The notes under the pieces: generated by a model
The model's database searches: none
What the model was told of the DNA's origin: nothing
Seen by the model: the letters and a program-made list of their open reading frames with translations, nothing else
NCBI GenBank assembly: GCA_013695175.1
Contig: JACDAZ010000471.1
Span: 1-14,362 of the forward strand
Reading direction: 5' to 3'
Origin: Flavisolibacter sp.
GTDB lineage: Bacteria > Bacteroidota > Bacteroidia > Chitinophagales > Chitinophagaceae
Length of the DNA: 14,362 nt
In this document: piece by piece, positions 1 through 10,596 of the stretch
Position numbering within the stretch: the stretch's first letter is position 1
Layout: each line of letters begins with the position of its first letter
Position numbers and translations under genes: made by a program

Positions 1-563
1 CTGTTTAAATTTGAAACAGTTATGGTAACATCATTTGCATTGGCTGCAGAAAAAGCAAATAGTAGTCCAGTAAGAAATTGGGATGATAATGATCCATCTA
101 TAGTAATACTTTTTGGATTTAAAGGACCTTGTATTTGAAGAGGTAATAATCCACTATTACTTTTAATTACTACACCAAGATTTGGTAGAACTTCATCAAA
201 AAAAGATAATGGTCTTTTCATTAGACTTCCTGAACCTGTAATATTAATGGGTGCATAGGACAATGCAGCTATGGGAGTAAACATTCTTACAGATAAACCA
301 CTTTCGCCACAATCAATTGTATTTGAAACAGGTTTTATTCCTTTACTATTAATAATAATTTTATCATCACTACTTTCTACTATAGCACCTAATTGCTGAA
401 TTATATTTAATGCTGCTTCGTCATCTGCTGATTTTCCGGGATTTTTCAAAACGGTTCTTCCTCCTTTTAATAAAGCTGCTGCACAGGCTCTTTGCATAAC
501 GCTTTTTGATGCAGGTGCTGATACCGACCCGGTAAGGGAAGATGGAGATATAATAACCTGCAT
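1..563 (-). CDS. aroA: 3-phosphoshikimate 1-carboxyvinyltransferase (EPSP synthase), N-terminal part, cut by window edge
   Basis: Sixth step of the shikimate pathway: transfers enolpyruvate from PEP to shikimate-3-phosphate, in the cytoplasm. About 187 codons are visible and the frame is open to the window edge, so well under half of a usual 410-440 residue enzyme is present. The N-terminus carries the substrate-binding S-K-S signature (SAPASKSVMQRA, about residues 15-26). Further on come DCGESGLSVRMFTPI (the SGxxxR family motif) and GSLSSQFLTGLL (the SSQF shikimate-phosphate loop). The ATG shares its A with the aroB stop codon (TAATG), so translation is probably coupled to aroB. It is the last visible gene of the attenuated aromatic operon; whether the operon continues is not visible. 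Identification is firm. Confidence 0.95.
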   Translation of the reverse strand, partial: MQVIISPSSLTGSVSAPASKSVMQRACAAALLKGGRTVLKNPGKSADDEAALNIIQQLGAIVESSDDKIIINSKGIKPVSNTIDCGESGLSVRMFTPIAALSYAPINITGSGSLMKRPLSFFDEVLPNLGVVIKSNSGLLPLQIQGPLNPKSITIDGSLSSQFLTGLLFAFSAANANDVTITVSNLN

Positions 564-1573
564 TATATATAGTTCTTTAATTGTGTAAAAGAAATCCGAT
601 GAATTACTGCGCTTCCAATTTTTTCCAATAAAATAAAATCAATTGAATCTTTTGATTTTTTCTTATCCATTTTTAATACATCAAATACATTGTTTCTGTC
701 AACTTTTAAAGTAGTGGGCAGTTCATATTGCTGAAGAAGATTAGATACTTTTCCTGCGTTTTTTATTTTTAATACTTTTTCAGCGATATTGGTTGCATAA
801 ACCATCCCTATTGAAATGGCTTCTCCATGTGGCATTGTGTAGAGGTTTTCAATAGCATGACCTATTGTATGTCCAAAGTTCAACAGCTTTCTCCCGCTTT
901 TTTCAAATTCATCTTTTTGAACAATTTTAGTTTTCAAAAGCACATTCCTTTTGATCAATGCTGACAGTTCAAGCGGGTTTTTTTGATAAAATAATAAATT
1001 TTGTTTTTCCAGTTTTTTAAACATTGCTGCATCTTTTATACATGCATGTTTAATGATCTCAGCAAATCCATTTTTCCATTCCTGTTGTGGCAAGGTTTTT
1101 AAAAAAGAAAGATCGTATAATATAAATGAGGGCTGCCTGATCACTCCAATCATATTCTTATAAACACCAACGTCCACACCATTTTTACCTCCTATAGATG
1201 CATCTACTAAAGCCAGAATAGTTGTTGGAACAAATGCAAAAGAAATACCTCTCATATATATTGAAGCCACATAACCAGTAATGTCTGTTATTACACCACC
1301 ACCAATACCTATTAAAGTTGTAGTTCTGTCAGCTTTCAGTTCTATTAACTGCTGAACAACCGAATCTACAGTTTGTTGAATTTTATAAGCTTCACCTGGT
1401 TTTAATACTATAGTATTCCAGTTTTTAAATATTTTTTGATGTAATGAAAAAACATTTTCATCTGTTATCAATACGGTATTTGTTTGATCAACCAGTTGTC
1501 CTAAATATTTTATTTCCGCATCAAAATAGTAATGTACTATACCGGTATTAAATTTTACTAATTTTTTATGCAT
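563..1573 (-). CDS. aroB: 3-dehydroquinate synthase
   Basis: Converts DAHP to 3-dehydroquinate, the second shikimate-pathway step, using NAD and a divalent metal. The 336-residue protein is slightly shorter than the usual 340-360. Visible motifs are the NAD-binding GGGVITD (91-97), the family signature VPTTILALVDASIGGK (115-130), ExxKH (E172-H176), and the metal ligands in HTIGH (235-239) and HGE (249-251). The start overlaps the stop of the upstream DAHP synthase/chorismate mutase gene by one base (TGATG), and its own stop overlaps aroA by one base (TAATG). This is typical of translational coupling in a tight operon. No internal promoter is needed or seen. Confidence 0.96.
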   Translation of the reverse strand: MHKKLVKFNTGIVHYYFDAEIKYLGQLVDQTNTVLITDENVFSLHQKIFKNWNTIVLKPGEAYKIQQTVDSVVQQLIELKADRTTTLIGIGGGVITDITGYVASIYMRGISFAFVPTTILALVDASIGGKNGVDVGVYKNMIGVIRQPSFILYDLSFLKTLPQQEWKNGFAEIIKHACIKDAAMFKKLEKQNLLFYQKNPLELSALIKRNVLLKTKIVQKDEFEKSGRKLLNFGHTIGHAIENLYTMPHGEAISIGMVYATNIAEKVLKIKNAGKVSNLLQQYELPTTLKVDRNNVFDVLKMDKKKSKDSIDFILLEKIGSAVIHRISFTQLKNYI

Positions 1574-2661
1574 CAGGCATTAAATATTTTAGTTTGATGA
1601 TTAATGCTTTCAAGGTGTACAGCATCAAGATATTTTGTAATAAAATCTTTACTCAAACCTAGTTTTTCACCTTTTTTGCATGCACGATCCAATATTTCAT
1701 TCCACCTTTTTGTTTGTAGTATAGTAATGTCGTTTTCTTTTTTGTATTCAGCAATTCTTTCTGCAATTTTCATTCGCTGACTTAAAATGAACATCAATTC
1801 ATCATCTAAATGATTTATCTGTTGTCTTAATTTTTCTAGAGCTGCATGATATTCTTCCGAAGCAATATCTTCTTTCCTCCAGATAATTTCGTTAAGCAAT
1901 AACAATAGCTGCTCAGGTGTTATCTGCTGGCTGGCATCGCTCCATGCATTATCAGGATCAATATGACTTTCTATCATTAAACCATCAAATCCCAAATCAA
2001 TGGCCTGTTGTGCAACTTCAAATAAGATATCACGTCGTCCGCAAATATGCGAAGGATCGTTTATGATCGGCAGCCCCGGATTTCTTCTCTTCATTTCAAT
2101 TGCCAAATGCCACATAGGCGCATTCCTGTATTCAGTATTGCCATAAGAAGAAAAACCACGATGTATTAAACCAATATTTTTTATGCCTGCCTTTGCTATT
2201 CTTTCTACAGCACCTGTCCATAATTCAAGATCAGGATTAATAGGATTTTTTATTAACACAGGTATATCTACCCCACGTAATGCATCTGCAACTTCCTGAA
2301 CACTGAATGGATTTACTGTTGTCCTGGCACCAATCCAAAGCATATCCACATCAAAATGCAATGCATCATAAACTTGTTTACCTGTTGCCACTTCTACAGT
2401 GGTAGGCAACCCGGTAAGTTGTTTTGCTTTTTGTAGCCAGGGCAAACCTTTAGCACCAATGCCTTCGAAACTCCCGGGTCTTGTCCTTGGCTTCCAGATA
2501 CCGGCACGTAGCATATTAACCTTTCCGGTTTGTGAAAGCTTTGTTGCTGTTTCCACCACCTGGGCTTCTGTTTCAGCACTACAAGGACCAGATATGATTA
2601 ATGGTGTTTTGATCCATTTTTCTTCAGTGGAATTCTGGGATAAAGTTGATGTTAGTTCCAT
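1573..2661 (-). CDS. bifunctional DAHP synthase / chorismate mutase
   Basis: A fusion enzyme that catalyses the entry step of the shikimate pathway (PEP + erythrose-4-phosphate to DAHP) and the later chorismate-to-prephenate step. Residues 15-265 form a type I-beta (KDO8P-synthase-like) DAHP synthase with GPCSAE (25-30), KPRT (57-60), GARTT (111-115), KNPINPD (138-144), DPSH (202-205) and ESH (231-233). Residues about 271-360 are an AroQ-type all-helical chorismate mutase with the pattern LRQQINHLDDELMFILSQR and a K-K-E-N segment. C-terminal chorismate mutase fusions to DAHP synthase are known in Bacteroidota, where the mutase can also act in feedback control. It follows tyrA after 29 bases, the largest gap in the operon, and overlaps aroB by one base. 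Confidence 0.95.
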   Translation of the reverse strand: MELTSTLSQNSTEEKWIKTPLIISGPCSAETEAQVVETATKLSQTGKVNMLRAGIWKPRTRPGSFEGIGAKGLPWLQKAKQLTGLPTTVEVATGKQVYDALHFDVDMLWIGARTTVNPFSVQEVADALRGVDIPVLIKNPINPDLELWTGAVERIAKAGIKNIGLIHRGFSSYGNTEYRNAPMWHLAIEMKRRNPGLPIINDPSHICGRRDILFEVAQQAIDLGFDGLMIESHIDPDNAWSDASQQITPEQLLLLLNEIIWRKEDIASEEYHAALEKLRQQINHLDDELMFILSQRMKIAERIAEYKKENDITILQTKRWNEILDRACKKGEKLGLSKDFITKYLDAVHLESINHQTKIFNA

Positions 2662-2690: not shown

Positions 2691-3530
2691 TTATTTGATA
2701 ATATTTTTTATACGGTTAGCCTTTTCAATGAGTTCCTGTAAATAATTATAATTTTCTTTTTCCAGGCAAGATTTAAATTTTCGCAGCTGCGAAATATGTT
2801 CATTCAAAACATCCAACACATTTTCACGGTTTTGCATAAAAATGGGAACCCACATTGCTGCATTGCTTTTTGCCAATCTTACAGTACTTTCAAAACCACC
2901 ACTTGCCAAACTAAAAATGGCATCTTCCTCTCTTTCTTTTTCTAAAACGGTATTAGCAAGTGCAAAAGAAGTGATGTGTGAAATATGACTTACATAAGCC
3001 ACATGAATATCATGTTCATCTGCATTCATGTACAAAGGTTGCATTCCTAATTTTCTATACAGGTCTTTAACCATTTCAACTGCATCTTTATCAGCCTTAT
3101 CTATATCGCAGATTACCACGGCTTTACCTTTAAAGGCGCCACTGATAGCAGCTTCCGGGCCACTATATTCTGTACCCCACATTGGATGTGTAGCAACAAA
3201 ACGTTTTCTATTTGGATGGTCTTTGATGACTTCAATAATTCCGGATTTTATTGAACCCACTTCTATTACAACTTGCTTAGTTATTTTATCCAATATAAAA
3301 GGAAGGAGTTTTTCTATTTCATCAACCGGTATTGCGATTATGATGAACTCTGACTTTAAAATAGCTTCTTCCAATGAAACAACTTCATCAACCAGACCTT
3401 TTTCCAAAGCAATTAAAGCATGCTTTTCATTAGCTTCCACTCCAAGTATTGTTTTAGCAATAGAAAGCTCCTTTAATGCTATAGCCATGGAACCACCTAT
3501 TAATCCTAAACCAATTATAGACACTTTCAT
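2691..3530 (-). CDS. tyrA: prephenate dehydrogenase
   Basis: Oxidatively decarboxylates prephenate to 4-hydroxyphenylpyruvate for tyrosine synthesis. The 279-residue protein opens with a Rossmann NAD(P)-binding loop, GLGLIGGS (7-14). It also carries EVGSIKS (about 90-96; many homologues have Asp where this has Glu) and the catalytic-region motif HPMWGTE with H115. The C-terminal helical dimerisation domain contains HISHITSFALAN. There is no C-terminal ACT domain, so tyrosine feedback through such a domain is not evident. Its ATG overlaps the end of the aminotransferase gene by four bases (ATGA). The upstream aminotransferase can finish the pathway. An arogenate-specific variant cannot be excluded from sequence alone. 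Confidence 0.93.
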   Translation of the reverse strand: MKVSIIGLGLIGGSMAIALKELSIAKTILGVEANEKHALIALEKGLVDEVVSLEEAILKSEFIIIAIPVDEIEKLLPFILDKITKQVVIEVGSIKSGIIEVIKDHPNRKRFVATHPMWGTEYSGPEAAISGAFKGKAVVICDIDKADKDAVEMVKDLYRKLGMQPLYMNADEHDIHVAYVSHISHITSFALANTVLEKEREEDAIFSLASGGFESTVRLAKSNAAMWVPIFMQNRENVLDVLNEHISQLRKFKSCLEKENYNYLQELIEKANRIKNIIK

Positions 3531-4687
3531 AATTCCATGATTTTTCTTATCCTAATAATAGCTTCGTCAAATCTAACTTCTGGACTACACAAACTAATTC
3601 TAATAAAATGTTCTCCTTCCGAACCAAATATGCCACCCGGTGTTATAAAAACTTTTGCTTTATGTAGTACATCATCACTAAGCATAAATCCATTTTCCCA
3701 TTTTGGATTTACCTTAGCCCATACAAACATTCCAGCCTGCTCATCTGAATAGGTACATTTTAATAATTGAAGCAATTCATAAACTTTTTCTCTTCTTTTT
3801 CTATACGTATCATTCAGGTTTTTAAACCATTCTTCTCCTAGTTCCAAAGCTTTTGCTGCTGCCAGTTGTACAGGCAAAAACATACCACTATCCATATTGC
3901 TTTTAAATTTTAAAACATCATTAATTTTATCGGCAGCTCCACATAACATACCTATTCGCCAACCCGCCATATTATGTGATTTACTTAAAGAATTTAATTC
4001 AATTACAACATCTTTTGCTCCATCTATTCCTAATAAACTGGTGGGGTTATTATTTAGTATAAAGCTGTATGGATTATCATGACAAATAAGAATTGAATGT
4101 TTCCTGGCAAAGGCTACTAATTTTTCAAATAATTCTTTATCAGGTAATTTACCGGTTGGCATATGCGGATAGCAAACCCACATTAGTTTTACATTAGAAA
4201 GATCCAGTTTTTCAATTTCATCAAAATCAGGCAACCAATTATTTTCTTCTTTTAAATTATAATCTATAATTGTTCCACCGGCGCATAAAACTGCAGTTCT
4301 ATATGTGGGATAACCCGGATTGGGTACTAAGGCTGCATCACCTTCATTTAAATAGGTCATGCAAATATGCATGATGCCTTCTTTAGAACCTATAAGCGGA
4401 AGAATTTCTTTTTCTGCCGACAGATCTACTTGATACCATTTCGAATACCATTCAGCAATAGCATTTCTAAAAACAGGTGAACCTTTATAACTCTGGTAGG
4501 AATGGGTGTTTGTTTTAGAGCTTTGCTCATGTAAAACTTTAATAACACTATCATGCGGTGGCAGATCGGGACTACCTATACCTAAATTTAAAACGGGCAT
4601 CCCATTTTTATTCAACTCTTCTATCTCCTGCAGTTTTTTAGAAAAGTAGTATTCATTAATATCTTTTAACCTGTCAGCAGTAAGCAT
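3527..4687 (-). CDS. PLP-dependent aminotransferase, class I/II (probable aromatic aminotransferase)
   Basis: Fold type I aminotransferase of 386 residues. Visible features are the SLSKSHNMAGWRIG segment with the PLP lysine at K236, the PLP-contacting Asp in CHDNPYSF (D204), NPGYPTY (123-129) and a C-terminal FIRISLC arginine. The usual NPxNPTG motif appears as YPHMPTGK (173-180), a variant I recognise from Bacteroidota enzymes. Family membership is sure; the substrate is inferred from context. It sits between pheA and tyrA, whose products make phenylpyruvate and hydroxyphenylpyruvate, so it most likely makes Phe and Tyr. The start is one base after the pheA stop, and the stop overlaps tyrA by four bases. 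Annotation pipelines may label such proteins methionine or LL-diaminopimelate aminotransferase. Confidence 0.9.
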   Translation of the reverse strand: MLTADRLKDINEYYFSKKLQEIEELNKNGMPVLNLGIGSPDLPPHDSVIKVLHEQSSKTNTHSYQSYKGSPVFRNAIAEWYSKWYQVDLSAEKEILPLIGSKEGIMHICMTYLNEGDAALVPNPGYPTYRTAVLCAGGTIIDYNLKEENNWLPDFDEIEKLDLSNVKLMWVCYPHMPTGKLPDKELFEKLVAFARKHSILICHDNPYSFILNNNPTSLLGIDGAKDVVIELNSLSKSHNMAGWRIGMLCGAADKINDVLKFKSNMDSGMFLPVQLAAAKALELGEEWFKNLNDTYRKRREKVYELLQLLKCTYSDEQAGMFVWAKVNPKWENGFMLSDDVLHKAKVFITPGGIFGSEGEHFIRISLCSPEVRFDEAIIRIRKIMEL

Positions 4688-4688
4688 G

Positions 4689-5522
4689 TTATTTTAATGT
4701 TTTTCCCTTTTTGTAAATACCGAAAACCTTAACTGTTTCAGCATGTTTCTTTATACTTTTTAAAGCAATTTCGAATTCCTCAATTTTATTAAATTCCAGA
4801 TCTGCATAAAAACTATACTTCCAATTGCTGCCCGGAACAGGAACACTTTGGAGCTTGCTTAAGTTTATATCATACCTGGCTATATCTGTTAGCACCTTTG
4901 CAAGGCTTCCTTTAAGATGTTTCACCTGAAATTGAATAGAAGCTTTATTAGCTGTTTCCAGTTGATAAATACCATTTTGAGGTACCACAATAAGAAATCG
5001 TGTATAATTATTTTTTTCATCCTGTATGGCAGGTGCCAATATTTCCAGCCCAAATAATTCAGCAGCGAGGGAACCGGCAATGGCTGCAATATGCTTACTG
5101 CTATGGCGTTTTATGTGTTTTGCACTTAAAGCAGTATCTTCTGTTTCTACCTGTTTCCACTGATGACAATCTAAAAAATTCTGACATTGTTGTAATGCCA
5201 TCGGATGTGAGTGGACCTCTTTTATATCATTAAGAGAAATGCCGGGATTGACTAATAAATGTTGATTGATCTGCAAATAAATTTCACCGGCAATCTGCAA
5301 GTTTGCTCTTTGAAGCAATTTATAATTGGGGAGAATGCTACCGGCAATTGAATTTTCAATAGCCATAACCCCCCCACCGCTTTGTTGGGAATCAGCAGCT
5401 AATACAACTACTTCTTTAAAAGTAGCGCAAGGAATGATTTCAATTTCATTATTGAAAAAAGCCTGTGCTGCCTTATGATGAAAGCTGCCTTCATAACCCT
5501 GTATTGAAATTTTTCTTTTCAT
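4689..5522 (-). CDS. pheA: prephenate dehydratase with ACT domain
   Basis: Converts prephenate to phenylpyruvate for phenylalanine synthesis. The 277-residue monofunctional enzyme has the PDT domain at about 4-180: GYEGSFHHKAA at the start, AIENSIAGS (54-62), HSHPMALQQC (104-113) and the catalytic TRF (174-176). A C-terminal ACT domain (about 197-272) probably binds Phe. In it the classical ESRP effector motif is replaced by Q-S-V-P within INLSKLQSVPVPG, as I recall for Bacteroidota enzymes. It has no fused chorismate mutase; that activity sits on the DAHP synthase four genes downstream. It is the first structural gene of the operon. Its ATG directly follows the U-tract of the attenuator terminator, with no Shine-Dalgarno sequence, so both transcription and ribosome access may depend on that hairpin. 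Confidence 0.95.
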   Translation of the reverse strand: MKRKISIQGYEGSFHHKAAQAFFNNEIEIIPCATFKEVVVLAADSQQSGGGVMAIENSIAGSILPNYKLLQRANLQIAGEIYLQINQHLLVNPGISLNDIKEVHSHPMALQQCQNFLDCHQWKQVETEDTALSAKHIKRHSSKHIAAIAGSLAAELFGLEILAPAIQDEKNNYTRFLIVVPQNGIYQLETANKASIQFQVKHLKGSLAKVLTDIARYDINLSKLQSVPVPGSNWKYSFYADLEFNKIEEFEIALKSIKKHAETVKVFGIYKKGKTLK

Positions 5523-5552
5523 AAAAAGAAAATCCCGGCGTTTGCCGGGATT
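5523..5552 (-). terminator. attenuator terminator before pheA
   Basis: A 9-bp stem (AATCCCGGC, loop AAAC, GCCGGGATT) is followed by the tract TTTTCTTTTT, whose last T is directly before the pheA ATG. It is strong and GC-rich in an AT-rich context. On the opposite strand it also reads as a hairpin followed by T-residues. It should also stop read-through from the upstream helicase gene. Confidence 0.88.
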
Positions 5553-5634
5553 TTTTATGCTGATTTAAAACAATTGAATATATCAACAAAGCATTCCCGG
5601 TTTCACTTTAAAATAAAAGTAAAAATAAAACCAA
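5523..5634 (-). promoter_or_regulatory. transcription attenuator with protector, antiterminator and terminator arms
   Basis: Three alternative pairings can be drawn in the leader RNA. Protector: UUGGUUU over the Trp/Phe codons (5634-5628) pairs with AAACCGG (5603-5597), including two G-U pairs. Antiterminator: CCGGGA (5600-5595, the Pro-Gly codons of the leader peptide) pairs with UCCCGG (5550-5545), which is the left arm of the terminator; it can extend through AUGC (5594-5591) with GCAU (5560-5557). Terminator: the AAUCCCGGC/GCCGGGAUU hairpin. A ribosome stalled on the aromatic codons covers the first arm and frees the second for the antiterminator. A ribosome that reaches the UGA covers the second arm and lets the terminator form. 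This matches the classical trp/phe logic. Folding was done by eye. Confidence 0.82.
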
Positions 5635-5657
5635 CGATATGCTCTTGCTGTTGCCAT
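5583..5657 (-). CDS. aromatic amino acid leader peptide (attenuation peptide)
   Basis: A 24-residue open frame between the helicase and pheA genes, in the same direction as the operon. It starts ATG-GCA-ACA-GCA, and its core is Y-R followed by eight aromatic codons in a row, W-F-Y-F-Y-F-Y-F (residues 9-16). It then reads K-V-K-P-G-M-L-C and stops with TGA. Nine of 24 residues are aromatic. Such a run, placed before a terminator and an aromatic biosynthesis operon, is the hallmark of a regulatory peptide on which a ribosome stalls when charged tRNA is scarce. The mix of Trp, Phe and Tyr codons fits an operon that feeds all three amino acids. The -7 box ends four bases before the ATG, so translation may be leaderless. 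The peptide itself probably has no other function. Confidence 0.88.
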   Translation of the reverse strand: MATARAYRWFYFYFYFKVKPGMLC

Positions 5658-5661
5658 TGAA

Positions 5662-5692
5662 CAAATATATAGATCATTCCAAAATAAACAAA
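5662..5692 (-). promoter_or_regulatory. promoter of the aromatic operon (Bacteroidota type)
   Basis: On the minus strand a TTTG (-33 box, 5692-5689) is followed after 19 bases by TATATTTG (5669-5662), an exact match to the Bacteroidota -7 consensus TAnnTTTG at the usual spacing. It lies between the helicase stop codon and the leader peptide. The predicted transcription start, about five bases past the -7 box, falls on or beside the leader peptide ATG. This is a motif match, not a mapped start. Confidence 0.72.
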
Positions 5693-5698
5693 TTCTAT

Positions 5699-7366
5699 TT
5701 ATCTTCTTACTGAATCTGCTTCATTCATTCTTATTTTTCTTCCTTTATACTTCTTGCCGTCAATTGACTCAATCATCTGTTTTGCAGCCTTTGACTCAAC
5801 TTCTATCCAACTATTCATTTCTTTCATATCTATTCTGCCTAAACTACTTTTGCTTAAATCACTCAGATCAAGTATGAATTGTAAAAAACTTGCTTTATAA
5901 AAGCCATCTTTCGTTCCAAGGTTTATAAACAGTCTTGTGTAATTACCATCTCCTCCAAAATCTCTGCCACGGGTGTCTCTTTTTCTGTCACCAGGCCTAT
6001 CACCCCTGCTTGTAGTTGCTGTTCTCCTATCTTCTCTTGTTCGTTCCCGGGGGTTTAAGTCTTCAGCATTTTCATAATATTTTAAAAACCTGTCAAATTC
6101 CATTGCAGCCACTCTTTTCAAAACTTCCTCTTTTGAAACATCAGCAAATTTCTCCTGGAGCATAGGTAAGTAAGTTTCATAATCTCCATGACTAATATCA
6201 GCTTGCAGGAGTTTATCCATAAAATAATAAAATTGCTTTCTGCAAACATCTTTACCCGATGGAATTTCCAATTTATGAAAATTAACCTGGATCATTCTTT
6301 CTATTTGCCTGATGCGACCTACTTCACGGGTATGAACAATGGACATACAGATACCTGTTTTACCGGCACGCCCGGTTCTTCCACTTCTGTGCGTGTATAC
6401 TTCCACATCATCCGGCAGTTCATAATTAATAACATGCGTGATTCCCTGAACATCTATTCCTCTTGCTGCAACATCAGTTGCAATTAATAATTGCAATGAT
6501 TTTTCTCTGAATTCGCCCATTACCTTATTCCGCTGACCTTGTGTAAGATCACCATGCAGGGCTTCTATGTCATAACCTTCCCGGGTAAGTTTTTCCGAAA
6601 CTTCCTGAGCATCAAGCTTAGTTCTTGTGAAAATGATACCATACATTCCCGGATTAAAATCAATGAGTCTTTTTAAAGTTTCATATCTGTGCTGCGCAGA
6701 GGTAACACAATACTGATGATCAATATTAATATTTGCAGTATTCTTTTTCCCAACTGTAATTTCTACCGGTTGTTGCATATAGCGTTTGCTTACCTGCCTG
6801 ATTTCCGGTGGCATAGTAGCACTAAAAAGCCAGGTACTGTCTCTTTCAGGAGTATTTTGAAGTATAAATTCAATGTCCTCCTGGAAACCCATGTTCAACA
6901 TTTCATCTGCTTCATCCAGAACAACATATTTTATTTTTTCCAGGTTGATTGCCTTTCTTTCAATAAGATCAATTAATCTGCCGGGAGTCGCAACTATTAT
7001 ATGAATTCCTCTTCTGATATCTCGAATTTGCATGCTTATAGATGTACCTCCATATACTGCCAGCACATTTACTGAAGTTGTATATTTTTTATATTTTTCG
7101 ATGTCATTCACAATCTGCATGCATAGCTCACGTGTAGGACAAATAATTAATGCCTGTGGATGTTTATCTTTAGATTCCACCAATTGAAGCAGAGGCAATC
7201 CAAAGGCTGCCGTTTTTCCCGTTCCGGTTTGCGCCAAACCAATAAGATCTTTTGTTCCGGATAATAATACAGGAATTGCTTTTTCCTGTATAGTTGTGGG
7301 TTCAGTAAAACCTAATTCTTCTATAGCCTTTAATAATTTAGGATCTAATCCTAACTCTTGAAACAT
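5699..7366 (-). CDS. DEAD-box RNA helicase with DbpA-like RNA-binding domain (DeaD/CsdA type)
   Basis: ATP-dependent RNA helicase, probably for ribosome assembly or cold-related RNA remodelling. The 555-residue protein shows the full motif set: Q motif FTEPTTIQ (20-27), Walker A AQTGTGKT (45-52), PTREL (77-81), TPGR (127-130), DEAD (151-154), SAT (182-184), ATDVAARGID (296-305) and HRSGRTGR (326-333). A charged Arg/Asp-rich linker (about 437-470) joins it to a C-terminal RRM-like domain (about 475-550; RLFINLGTKDGF...IGxIDMKEMNSWIEVE type) as in DbpA and DeaD. The start ATG lies 16 bases after a good -7 box. Downstream, the aromatic operon promoter begins only a few bases past its stop, with the attenuator hairpin as the nearest terminator. 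Whether it is a true DeaD or DbpA orthologue is open. Confidence 0.93.
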   Translation of the reverse strand: MFQELGLDPKLLKAIEELGFTEPTTIQEKAIPVLLSGTKDLIGLAQTGTGKTAAFGLPLLQLVESKDKHPQALIICPTRELCMQIVNDIEKYKKYTTSVNVLAVYGGTSISMQIRDIRRGIHIIVATPGRLIDLIERKAINLEKIKYVVLDEADEMLNMGFQEDIEFILQNTPERDSTWLFSATMPPEIRQVSKRYMQQPVEITVGKKNTANINIDHQYCVTSAQHRYETLKRLIDFNPGMYGIIFTRTKLDAQEVSEKLTREGYDIEALHGDLTQGQRNKVMGEFREKSLQLLIATDVAARGIDVQGITHVINYELPDDVEVYTHRSGRTGRAGKTGICMSIVHTREVGRIRQIERMIQVNFHKLEIPSGKDVCRKQFYYFMDKLLQADISHGDYETYLPMLQEKFADVSKEEVLKRVAAMEFDRFLKYYENAEDLNPRERTREDRRTATTSRGDRPGDRKRDTRGRDFGGDGNYTRLFINLGTKDGFYKASFLQFILDLSDLSKSSLGRIDMKEMNSWIEVESKAAKQMIESIDGKKYKGRKIRMNEADSVRR

Positions 7367-8926: not shown

Positions 8927-9493
8927 TTGAAGACTGAGTCGAAAGAAATTTTATTGCTTCGTGGGCTGGCTGATAACGATAAAAAGGCAATTGAGACTAT
9001 TTACAAAGAAAATTACAATATAGTCCAGGCTTTAATTATTAATAACAATGGCAGTTCGGAAGATGCAAAAGATATTTTCCAGGAAGCAATTATTGTATTG
9101 TATGAAAAAGTGAAAACCGGGACCTTTACGCTTAATTGCCAGATCAGAACATACATATATTCCGTTAGCAAAAGGTTGTGGTTAAAGAAGTTAATGCAAC
9201 AAAATCGTTTTTCACTTACTTCTGAAGGTCACGAAGAAACGGTGCAAATTGAAGCAGATGTAGATGACTATGAAAAAAAAGAAACAGAATTTAAAATGAT
9301 GGAAAAGGCTGTTAGTGGTTTAGGTGAGCCTTGTAAAAGTTTGATTGAAGCATTTTATGTAGAAAAAAGAAACATGCAGGAGATTGCAAATTCTTTTGGA
9401 TATACAAATGCTGATAATGCTAAAAATCAAAAATATAAATGCCTCATGCGTTTAAAAAAATTATTTTTTACTCAGTATAAATTAGATTCATAA
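8927..9493 (+). CDS. ECF-type RNA polymerase sigma factor
   Basis: A 188-residue sigma-70 family protein of the extracytoplasmic function group. Region 2 (about 22-92) includes the core-binding and -10 recognition helix DAKDIFQEAIIVLYEKV (46-62). A short acidic linker (about 100-122) follows, then region 4 (about 125-183) with the helix-turn-helix MQEIANSFGYTNADNAKNQK, a pattern common in Bacteroidota sigma factors. The start is TTG; the nearest ATG (8919) is in another frame and stops after three codons, and the next in-frame ATG lies deep in the gene. It is followed after two bases by a membrane-anchored anti-sigma/protease gene. It is probably held at the membrane by that partner and activates its own promoter and two divergent lipoprotein units. 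Confidence 0.92.
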   Translation: MKTESKEILLLRGLADNDKKAIETIYKENYNIVQALIINNNGSSEDAKDIFQEAIIVLYEKVKTGTFTLNCQIRTYIYSVSKRLWLKKLMQQNRFSLTSEGHEETVQIEADVDDYEKKETEFKMMEKAVSGLGEPCKSLIEAFYVEKRNMQEIANSFGYTNADNAKNQKYKCLMRLKKLFFTQYKLDS

Positions 9494-9495
9494 TC

Positions 9496-10596
9496 ATGAA
9501 CGATCTGCAAATTCTGGAAGCTGTAGAAAGATACATCTCAGGACAAATGAGTTCGGATGAAAGGGTGTATTTTGAACAGCTGCGTAAAACCGATCCGGAA
9601 ATTGATCAGTTAGTGGTGGAGCATACATTTTTCATGCAACAGTTCGACAGGTTTGAAAACACAAAAAAATTAAAGACCCGGTTGAATGAGGTGCATATTG
9701 AATTGGCGGAAAGAAATCTGATCAAATCTCCTAAACTAAAAGGCAAAGCAAAAATTGTTTACTTGTTTAACAGGTACAAAAAAGTAACTGCCATTGCAGC
9801 TTCTATTGCTGGTATTACTGCATTAACATTTAGTGCTATGGTTTGGTCTGTTTCACCAAACAATAAAAATAATGCTGACATAAAAGCATTAAACAGGGAA
9901 ATTAGCGCTTTAAAAAATCAAAATTCACAACAGAATCGTGAGATCAATAACATCAAACAAAATATTCCTGCTACCATTAATTATACAAAAGGTGGAACGG
10001 GATTTTTAATTGATGAAGAAGGTTATATTGTTACCAATGCACACATTATAGAGAATGCACGCAATATTGCTGTTCAAAATGCAGCTGGCAAAGACATGAC
10101 AGTGAATGTAGTATATGTTGATGTTGAACGTGATCTTGCTATACTTAAAATAGCTGACACCAGTTTTATGGCTCAACCTATTCCTTTTAGAATTAAAAAA
10201 TCATCTGCAGATATTGCTGATCATGTTTATACATTAGGTTATCCAAGAAATGATATTGTTTACGGTGAAGGCTATCTTGCTGCAAAAACAGGATACAATG
10301 GTGATACGCTCACCTGCCAGATTGCAATTGCAGCCAATCCAGGAAACAGTGGAGGACCAGTATTGAACAGGAATGGTGAAGTAATTGGCATTTTAAGTAC
10401 AAAACAAACAAGTGCTGATGGTGTTGTATTTGCCATTCAATCTAAATACATCCATCTTGCTTTGGAAGAATTGCAAAACAAAGATTCTACATATAAACAT
10501 TTAAAAATACCTTCATCCACTTCTTTAAAGGGTATGGAAAAAACACAACAAGTGAAAAAAATATCTGAATATGTGTATATGGTAAAAGTGAGTTGA
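9496..10596 (+). CDS. membrane-anchored anti-sigma-like protein fused to an HtrA-type trypsin protease domain
   Basis: A 366-residue protein in four parts. Residues 1-90 are cytoplasmic and predicted helical (AVERYISGQMSSDERVYFEQ), resembling the N-termini of Bacteroidota anti-sigma factors but lacking the zinc-binding His/Cys motif. Residues about 97-118 are a single transmembrane helix. Residues about 127-156 form a Gln/Asn-rich coiled coil. Residues about 160-325 are an S1C (DegS/HtrA-like) trypsin fold with a readable triad: His183 in TNAHII, Asp213 in ERDLAIL and Ser285 in NPGNSGGPV. There is no PDZ domain; a short tail ends YVYMVKVS. It lies two bases after the sigma gene. In E. coli, RseA and the protease DegS are separate proteins; here both roles appear in one chain. 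The protease call is firm, the anti-sigma role inferred. Confidence 0.85.
   Translation: MNDLQILEAVERYISGQMSSDERVYFEQLRKTDPEIDQLVVEHTFFMQQFDRFENTKKLKTRLNEVHIELAERNLIKSPKLKGKAKIVYLFNRYKKVTAIAASIAGITALTFSAMVWSVSPNNKNNADIKALNREISALKNQNSQQNREINNIKQNIPATINYTKGGTGFLIDEEGYIVTNAHIIENARNIAVQNAAGKDMTVNVVYVDVERDLAILKIADTSFMAQPIPFRIKKSSADIADHVYTLGYPRNDIVYGEGYLAAKTGYNGDTLTCQIAIAANPGNSGGPVLNRNGEVIGILSTKQTSADGVVFAIQSKYIHLALEELQNKDSTYKHLKIPSSTSLKGMEKTQQVKKISEYVYMVKVS

Follow-up and report, generated by a model that had tools for sequence, protein, structure and literature searches.

A predicted Phe/Tyr leader-peptide attenuator upstream of pheA in Flavisolibacter sp. and its occurrence in related Bacteroidia

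Introduction

How might a member of the Chitinophagaceae adjust the synthesis of phenylalanine (Phe) and tyrosine (Tyr) to the supply of both amino acids? The question is raised by contig JACDAZ010000471.1 of Flavisolibacter sp., a stretch of 14,362 nucleotides (nt) referred to here as the window, in which a gap separates a DEAD-box helicase gene from pheA, the first gene of an aromatic amino-acid cluster. A first-pass annotation had read this gap as an attenuator that senses all three aromatic amino acids. The analysis described here leads us to conclude that the gap very probably holds a ribosome-mediated transcription attenuator which senses the charging of Phe- and Tyr-tRNA and gates the cluster pheA-aminotransferase-tyrA-DAHP synthase/chorismate mutase-aroB-aroA. 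The observations behind this reading are sequence, predicted stems, conservation, covariation, and gene order; from them we infer promoter use, leader translation, stalling, termination, and co-transcription of the cluster.

Results

Anatomy of the leader region

The leader region and the gene cluster lie on the minus strand (Table 1). Codons 9-16 of the leader open reading frame (ORF) form the aromatic run W-F-Y-F-Y-F-Y-F. In the predicted fold, the run and the codons preceding it pair with the end of the ORF through UUGGUUU:AAACCGG (5645-5622 with 5609-5588), giving a protector stem, and the same fold also forms the terminator hairpin. An alternative pairing is available in which CCGGGAAUGC (5600-5591) is complementary to GCAU...UCCCGG (5560-5545), CCGGGA matching UCCCGG at 5550-5545 and AUGC matching GCAU. 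The folding energy of the 136-nt leader is -41.4 kcal/mol compared with -23.2 ± 3.3 kcal/mol for 200 shuffled sequences, i.e., 5.6 standard deviations lower, and no shuffle reached this value. Promoter, 24-codon leader, three stems, and terminator are all found in sequence and predicted fold where the first-pass annotation had placed them, including the antiterminator arm, which falls within the final codons of the leader; only the length of the gap, given there as 180 nt, had to be corrected.

Conservation among relatives

To the family sample of 117 Chitinophagaceae genomes from 100 genera, 80 of which contain pheA, we applied a simple definition of a leader: a short ORF with at least six (loose) or at least seven (strict) aromatic residues per 10, located no more than 400 nt upstream of pheA. 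Under the loose definition, 77 of the 80 pheA loci carry a leader, compared with 4.3% of dinucleotide shuffles and 3 of 80 reverse complements. The strict definition gave 76 of 80, compared with 0.8% and 1 of 80, respectively; both counts include the window's own locus. The start codon is ATG in 76 of the 77 family leaders and GTG in one. A leader also precedes pheA in 78 of 80 named records (Filimonas, Segetibacter, Niastella, Terrimonas, Sediminibacterium, Flavihumibacter, Ferruginibacter, and others), which overlap in part with the organisms of the family set, and in 26 of 30 further hand-picked family loci. No clear leader was seen in one genome (G423) whose pheA lacks its usual neighbors.

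Beyond the family, the phylum survey covered 64 of 132 genomes with a match, 28 from other families of the class or order and 36 from other classes. Among the former, 25 of 28 loci have a leader, each with a terminator-like hairpin downstream; inspection by eye of one of these families (f8) showed two genomes with pheA immediately after an apparent aroA and no leader. In the other classes, only four of the 36 loci have a leader (L085, L088, L109, L115) and 32 do not. The pheA genes of these four are about as close to that of the window as same-class genes are (E 6e-94 to 1e-63), which suggests either that gene and leader were transferred jointly or that the contigs were mis-binned.

Covariation of the stems

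In each of the 77 family leaders, the terminator was defined as the best-scoring hairpin; 75 of them yielded an antiterminator arm, and the arms comprise 46 distinct pairs. Our main test was alignment-free and compared pairing between a leader's own arms with pairing between its own and foreign arms among 63 similarity-filtered leaders, using 20,000 permutations per stem. Own arms paired better than foreign ones in the protector (regions 1:2; -16.2 vs. -12.3 kcal/mol), the antiterminator (regions 2:3; -19.7 vs. -15.6 kcal/mol), and the terminator (regions 3:4; -18.6 vs. -14.1 kcal/mol), and in each case none of the permutations equaled the observed difference. Regions 1:3, for which no match was expected, served as a control and gave -5.58 vs. 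-5.69 kcal/mol (14,136 of 20,000 permutations). Arm pairs that changed together are exemplified by GCCGGAGG/CCTCCGGT in L039, GCTGAGGTT/GGCCTCAGC in L072, and TCTGAGGCTC/GAGCCTCAGG in L077.

Column-wise counts were made on a MAFFT alignment (A1) of 70 of the 77 leaders, six near-identical ones having been filtered out and L076 left out by choice. Double changes occur in 9 of 11 terminator pairs, a result not reached by any of 500 shuffles on all five measures, and in 9 of 10 antiterminator pairs, where none of 500 shuffles matched the number of pairs, the pair types, or the covariation score. The RNAalifold consensus consisted of the terminator only, the method being blind to alternative structures. 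When region 1 was recoded with synonymous codons, the native arm paired better than the average recoding in 56 of 63 leaders. Among 160 distinct leaders, the word CCGGG falls in frame 0 of the ORF in 61, in frame 1 in 15, and in frame 2 in 33, and the exact word is absent in 51; since the three frames yield different peptides, it is the RNA and not the peptide that is conserved at region 2. The geometry is likewise constrained, with a median of 8 nt between the end of the run and region 2 and a leader stop codon no more than 36 nt after the start of region 2 in 74 of 75 leaders.

In this model, the leaders contain mutually exclusive predicted antiterminator and terminator stems together with a protector stem, in the order of a classical attenuator, so that comparison among relatives bears out the anatomy proposed for the window. 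The first-pass annotation had named relatives without a leader, or stems without covariation, as grounds for giving up its reading; what we found was a leader at 77 of 80 loci and covariation in all three stems. This confirms that the leader element at 5523-5698 is real, an observation stronger than the sequence of the window could give by itself.

Proposed mechanism and folding model

According to the mechanism we propose, RNA polymerase would start at or next to the AUG of the leader ORF, which would be translated at once. When charged tRNA-Phe and tRNA-Tyr are ample, the ribosome would clear the Phe/Tyr run, reach the stop codon, and cover region 2; region 3 would then pair with region 4, and the resulting terminator would stop transcription just before pheA. 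When either charged tRNA is short, the ribosome would stall in the run and cover region 1, and the freed region 2 would pair with region 3, pre-empting the terminator and allowing transcription of all six genes from pheA to aroA. If the leader is not translated, region 1 would hold region 2 and the terminator would form. A single leader would in this way act as an OR gate for Phe or Tyr shortage over the pathway entry enzyme and both branches. The sole tryptophan (Trp) codon would probably serve the RNA stem first, and a stall at this codon would also be expected to antiterminate.

In the folding model, the transcript was ended at the terminator loop and the probability that region 3 is held by upstream RNA was calculated. 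Modeled in this way, region 3 of the window is sequestered with a probability of 0.83 when the ribosome stalls in the run and of 0.07 when it sits at the stop codon. The corresponding means over the 77 leaders are about 0.88 and 0.05, the former falling to 0.74 for a stall at the run's final codon.

Amino acids sensed by the leader

The runs of the 160 distinct leaders contain 860 Phe, 550 Tyr, and 32 Trp codons. Trp codons are neither conserved nor enriched: they occur in the run of 31 of 160 leaders, and their share of all Phe, Tyr, and Trp codons is 2.2% compared with 11.0% in ORFs of at least 250 residues from the 80 named loci. In 24 of these 31 leaders, Trp occupies the single residue just before the Phe/Tyr run, a position mostly taken by Arg, Thr, or Gly in leaders without Trp there. 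Inspection of nine Trp leaders showed that TGG pairs fully with the CCG of region 2 in the window and in L028, L036, L039, L058, and L067, partially in L048, and not in L059 and L074. In the Flavisolibacter genome itself, a separate leader with WWW, MNLVINKHWWWHTNFNKGSV, lies before trpE (L110:1277-1339) and is followed, as judged by eye, by a terminator-like hairpin. It shows weak similarity to Bacteroid-trp (RF01692; 33.7 bits, gathering threshold 49). Given the below-background share of Trp in the run and this separate trpE leader, Trp has its own switch and the conserved signal of the pheA leader is Phe plus Tyr. In the Flavisolibacter genome, Trp may still have an effect on the pheA leader.

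Promoter and leader start

TTTG is the upstream element of the Bacteroidota sigma-A-type promoter. The transcript start predicted for the window, 5657, is the A of the leader AUG. Of the 76 leaders in the first set, 55 have TAnnTTTG ending 4-10 nt before the AUG; for distinct leaders the count is 115 of 159 (one of the 160 could not be placed), compared with 17 of 643 ATG-initiated ORFs of at least 200 residues from the named loci. In Flavobacterium psychrophilum, a box of the TAnnTTTG type spans -12 to -5 relative to the transcript start, only 5.5% of mRNAs are leaderless, and the median 5' untranslated region is 24 nt (PMC9723704). Applying this box spacing to our leaders predicts that most leader ORFs begin 0-6 nt into the transcript, and 0 nt in the window. 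A leader predicted to start at the first bases of its transcript raises the question of leaderless translation in bacteria that the same study describes as lacking Shine-Dalgarno sequences (PMC9723704).

Leader codons, gene loss, and tandem modules

A search of 394 family genomes with each protein, the resulting lists being compared by eye, identified tyrA without pheA in G059, G068, G074, G302, and G358 and with only a pheA fragment in G360. Four of these six look like contig ends, leaving G068 (99% complete) and G074 (90%). No prephenate dehydratase domain was detected in either genome by a search that was positive for all 14 control genomes. The G068 cluster has tyrA as its first gene and is preceded by the leader MTQYSKYYYWYYLNRITG, which contains six Tyr, one Trp, and no Phe codons. 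Assuming independent draws and a Phe share of 0.61, the chance of no Phe among six Phe/Tyr codons is about 4 in 1000. The G074 leader precedes the aminotransferase gene and has five Tyr and two Phe codons; its Tyr fraction, Y/(F+Y) = 0.71, equals the highest value among the 160 other leaders. These cases, one clear (G068) and one weak (G074), are suggestive of leader codons following gene content. The stretches L158:4900-5400 and L160:4950-5400 hold leaders shifted towards Tyr where prephenate dehydratase is missing.

Of 20 pheA-less loci inspected around DAHP synthase, only G068 and, as judged by eye, G074 have a cluster preceded by an aromatic leader. Four further short aromatic ORFs, in L154, L163, L169, and L170, and another on the other strand in L160 were judged unrelated by their position. 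Overall, at E 1e-12, a pheA of the window type is missing from 119 of the 394 Chitinophagaceae genomes and from 88 of the 331 good ones among them. Eight such genomes were tested and no prephenate dehydratase domain was detected in them, the same search being positive for the pheA-bearing G000 and G423; Phe auxotrophy or an alternative route is likely in pheA-less Chitinophagaceae.

A different elaboration is seen in genus g6, where two leader-plus-terminator modules stand in series before pheA in all nine genomes examined (L075, L079, L286-L292). A Phe-Trp pair stands close to the end of the first run in every one of these genomes, and the second leader contains Phe and Tyr only.

Gene cluster downstream of the leader

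Gene matches support the cluster that the first-pass annotation had described, including the pathway entry enzyme; aroA is cut by the edge of the window. From its gene context, the aminotransferase is probably a phenylpyruvate/hydroxyphenylpyruvate aminotransferase. The spacings from pheA through aminotransferase, tyrA, DAHP synthase-chorismate mutase, and aroB to aroA are 1, -4, 29, -1, and -1 nt (negative values denote overlaps), and a consensus terminator scan found no minus-strand terminator from pheA to the window edge. Two positions are seen for the DEAD-box helicase gene, one directly upstream of the leader and the other, at 20 of 50 loci (L032-L081), within the operon, where it separates tyrA from DAHP synthase. 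Elsewhere in the window (8927-10596), the first ORF of a pair resembles, by eye, an ECF (extracytoplasmic function) sigma factor and the second a trypsin-like protease whose beginning may be of the anti-sigma type.

Table 1. Positions of the leader elements and adjoining genes in the window
Feature	Position	Strand	Remarks
DEAD-box helicase gene	5699-7366	-	3' end at 5699; directly upstream of the leader
Intergenic gap, DEAD-box helicase gene/pheA	5523-5698	-	176 nt
Sigma-A-type Bacteroidota promoter (predicted)	5662-5692	-	TTTG 5692-5689, 19-nt spacer, TATATTTG 5669-5662
Leader peptide ORF	5583-5657	-	MATARAYRWFYFYFYFKVKPGMLC; ATG at 5657, 24 codons, then TGA 5585-5583
Region 1, protector arm	5622-5645	-	predicted fold; overlaps codons 5-12, with the sole Trp codon TGG 5633-5631
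Region 2	5588-5609	-	antiterminator core CCGGGA 5600-5595 plus AUGC 5594-5591, within the last leader codons
Region 3	5544-5560	-	GCAU 5560-5557 plus terminator 5' arm AAAAUCCCGGC 5554-5544
Region 4	5523-5539	-	terminator 3' arm GCCGGGAUUUU 5539-5529 plus U-rich tract to 5523, adjoining the pheA AUG
Terminator hairpin	5554-5529	-	followed by TTTTCTTTTT to 5523; pheA ATG at 5522
pheA, prephenate dehydratase	4689-5522	-	best NCBIfam match E 7e-62, below the model's curated cut-off; PF00800 above cut-off
Pyridoxal phosphate-dependent aminotransferase	3527-4687	-	family matches below cut-offs
tyrA, prephenate dehydrogenase	2691-3530	-	above cut-off; 4-nt overlap with the aminotransferase gene
DAHP synthase-chorismate mutase fusion	1573-2661	-	pathway entry enzyme; E 8e-55 and 1e-12 for the two parts, below cut-offs
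aroB, 3-dehydroquinate synthase	563-1573	-	above cut-off
aroA, 5' part	3-563	-	runs past the window edge; E 4e-36, partial, below cut-off

Discussion

Weighing the attenuator reading

Several results speak against the interpretation of the element as a Phe/Tyr attenuator or narrow its support. Leaders were not found at three of the 80 family loci (L027, L080, L081), in two of the named records (L235, with 165 nt of upstream sequence, and L261), and at four of the 30 hand-picked loci (L184, L198, L200, and L201, the last at a contig end). For two of the 77 leaders (L054, L061), no antiterminator arm was obtained. Alignment A1 offsets CCGGG by one column between two leader groups, which weakens the antiterminator column test and is the reason why the alignment-free swap test was used as the main one: the share of paired antiterminator columns was reached by 18 of 500 shuffles and the number of double-change cells by 2 of 500, and slid antiterminator partners gave up to 7 pairs and 23 double-change cells (observed, 9 and 21). 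The swap permutations, in turn, keep relatedness only via the similarity filter, with the 1:3 control as sole guard. A simple scan of the window for E. coli-type promoters and terminator-like hairpins found 64 and 9, respectively, compared with 61.0 and 8.4 in shuffles, so the promoter and terminator parts rest on conservation.

The folding model adds further points of this kind. Sequestration of region 3 exceeds 0.8 in the stall state in 69 of 77 leaders and is below 0.2 in the stop state in 73, which leaves eight and four outside. Before region 4 is made, the ribosome-free equilibrium already favors antitermination (0.81 in the window and 0.82 on average, with only 2 of 77 leaders below 0.2), and the protector is therefore not thermodynamically dominant. 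Shuffling region 2 still left a mean sequestration of 0.51, with values above 0.8 in 11%, so that the absolute values are soft. Once all four regions are made, the terminator has a probability of 0.999 in the window whether the RNA is free, carries a stalled ribosome, or has the ribosome at the stop codon (means over 77 leaders 0.96, 0.77, and 0.99, respectively). Since the terminator is favored in every state at equilibrium, the switch must be kinetic, with the choice made during transcription as in the classical model. Finally, the link between leader codons and gene content has one clear genome (G068) and one weak one (G074) on its side, and in the reverse case, L271, where pheA lies beside DAHP synthase and tyrA is not in the fetched stretch, the leader has six Phe and two Tyr codons and is ordinary.

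The closest competitor is the tri-aromatic sensor of the first-pass annotation, in which the Trp codon is a true third input since DAHP synthase also feeds Trp synthesis. It is in keeping with the modeled stall at Trp9, which antiterminates as well as the Phe and Tyr stalls (0.83), with the finding that 14 of 29 leader peptides from other families contain Trp at some position, and with the Phe-Trp pair of the first g6 leader. Against these stand the scarcity of Trp in the run, its concentration at one site that pairs with region 2 in six of nine Trp leaders inspected, and the separate WWW leader before trpE. We consider a third input unlikely, and the term tri-aromatic does not describe the leader family.

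The remaining explanations dispense with one or other part of the proposed switch. That the hairpin is a constitutive terminator of the DEAD-box gene, with an incidental aromatic ORF, would fit the position of this gene directly upstream in the window and a terminator scan not above chance, but the leader is kept where the DEAD-box gene sits inside the cluster (L081, among the 20 loci with this arrangement, has no leader), antiterminator and protector arms covary, and the aromatic run is far above shuffles; we regard this explanation as highly improbable. Translational attenuation, in which the hairpin hides the pheA start instead of ending transcription, is marginally easier to entertain and still very unlikely: the hairpin of the window stops 6 nt short of the pheA AUG, whereas in relatives 50-196 nt separate the leader stop from the predicted pheA start and the hairpin stays after the leader, followed by a U-rich tract. 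An arrest peptide, whose nascent aromatic chain would stall the ribosome on binding of a small molecule as in TnaC, agrees with a short, aromatic leader peptide. However, the reading frame of the sequence that follows the run differs among leaders, Phe and Tyr swap freely, and no fixed arrest motif is apparent by eye, which makes this possibility, too, highly improbable. A transcription attenuator responding to Phe- and Tyr-tRNA charging is thus our preferred reading.

Taken more broadly, the data allow a tentative generalization, which we put at slightly below even chances: a class-wide attenuator family of the Bacteroidia, with a leaderless or near-leaderless leader and a two-tRNA OR gate over the shikimate/Phe/Tyr operon, whose codons are retuned on loss of a branch enzyme and which in one genus forms an AND-like serial double gate, the first leader carrying a conserved Trp codon. 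Such an element would be an RNA-level control point for entry into aromatic amino-acid synthesis across a large bacterial class. As the leader reveals which amino acids are sensed, the element would predict which of them a species tracks, and changes of the leader after gene loss would offer a natural test of whether sensing follows pathway content.

Comparison with known systems

No Rfam family reached its gathering threshold anywhere in the window; in 5400-5800, permissive settings gave 27 matches, none of which attained gathering and many of which were on the opposite strand. Phe_leader (RF01859) scored 23.2 bits on the pheA leader, against a gathering threshold of 55, and Bacteroid-trp (RF01692) gave no match at gathering in the window, nor any up to E 1 in 5400-5800. 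The enterobacterial pheL leader (RF01859) shares with our element a leader peptide before a prephenate dehydratase gene and the terminator/antiterminator logic; whereas pheL has a Phe-rich run and a single-gene target, the Flavisolibacter leader has Phe and Tyr codons, precedes a six-gene cluster, and lacks Rfam-level similarity. One leader reading codons of several amino acids is known from thr and ilvGMEDA, which concern other amino acids and pathways and are not from Bacteroidota. Leaders usually sense one amino acid according to the first-pass annotation, but those that read several are not new.

Attenuation by a leader peptide at pheA is classical in enterobacteria, as the available part of one report states (PMC1183508). 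The description of the element as unlisted holds for Rfam, but the accessible text of a 2021 study of F. psychrophilum reports a structured 5' element at pheA, also present in other genera of the Flavobacteriaceae and without an Rfam match. For amino-acid operons in general, the authors of that study find the clues to upstream attenuation by leader peptides strong (PMC9723704). That element is known from this text by location and structure, the Flavisolibacter leader by sequence, stems, and sensed codons (PMC9723704); the two are probably the same element. Bacteroid-trp is also a leader RNA of Bacteroidota, weakly resembled by the trpE leader of the Flavisolibacter genome, and differs by its Trp codons and trp genes, as far as its description is accessible (RF01692; PMC2864571). 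The literature available to us contained no description of a Phe/Tyr leader, its stems, or the Chitinophagaceae element; most subscription papers were outside this coverage, and Lopatovskaya 2010 could hold prior art. We regard as new the predicted start of most leader ORFs no more than 6 nt into the transcript, the serial attenuators in one genus, and the Tyr leader without Phe in a genome without prephenate dehydratase. For two of these features, the accessible parts of earlier reports offer parallels: the transcript of the Sinorhizobium meliloti trpL attenuator likewise begins with the leader AUG, but this system senses Trp and its RNA and peptide act in trans (PMC7298713), and the tandem attenuators of Salmonella mgtCBR have in common with genus g6 two leader ORFs and serial attenuation while responding to other signals and controlling other genes (PMC3641672).
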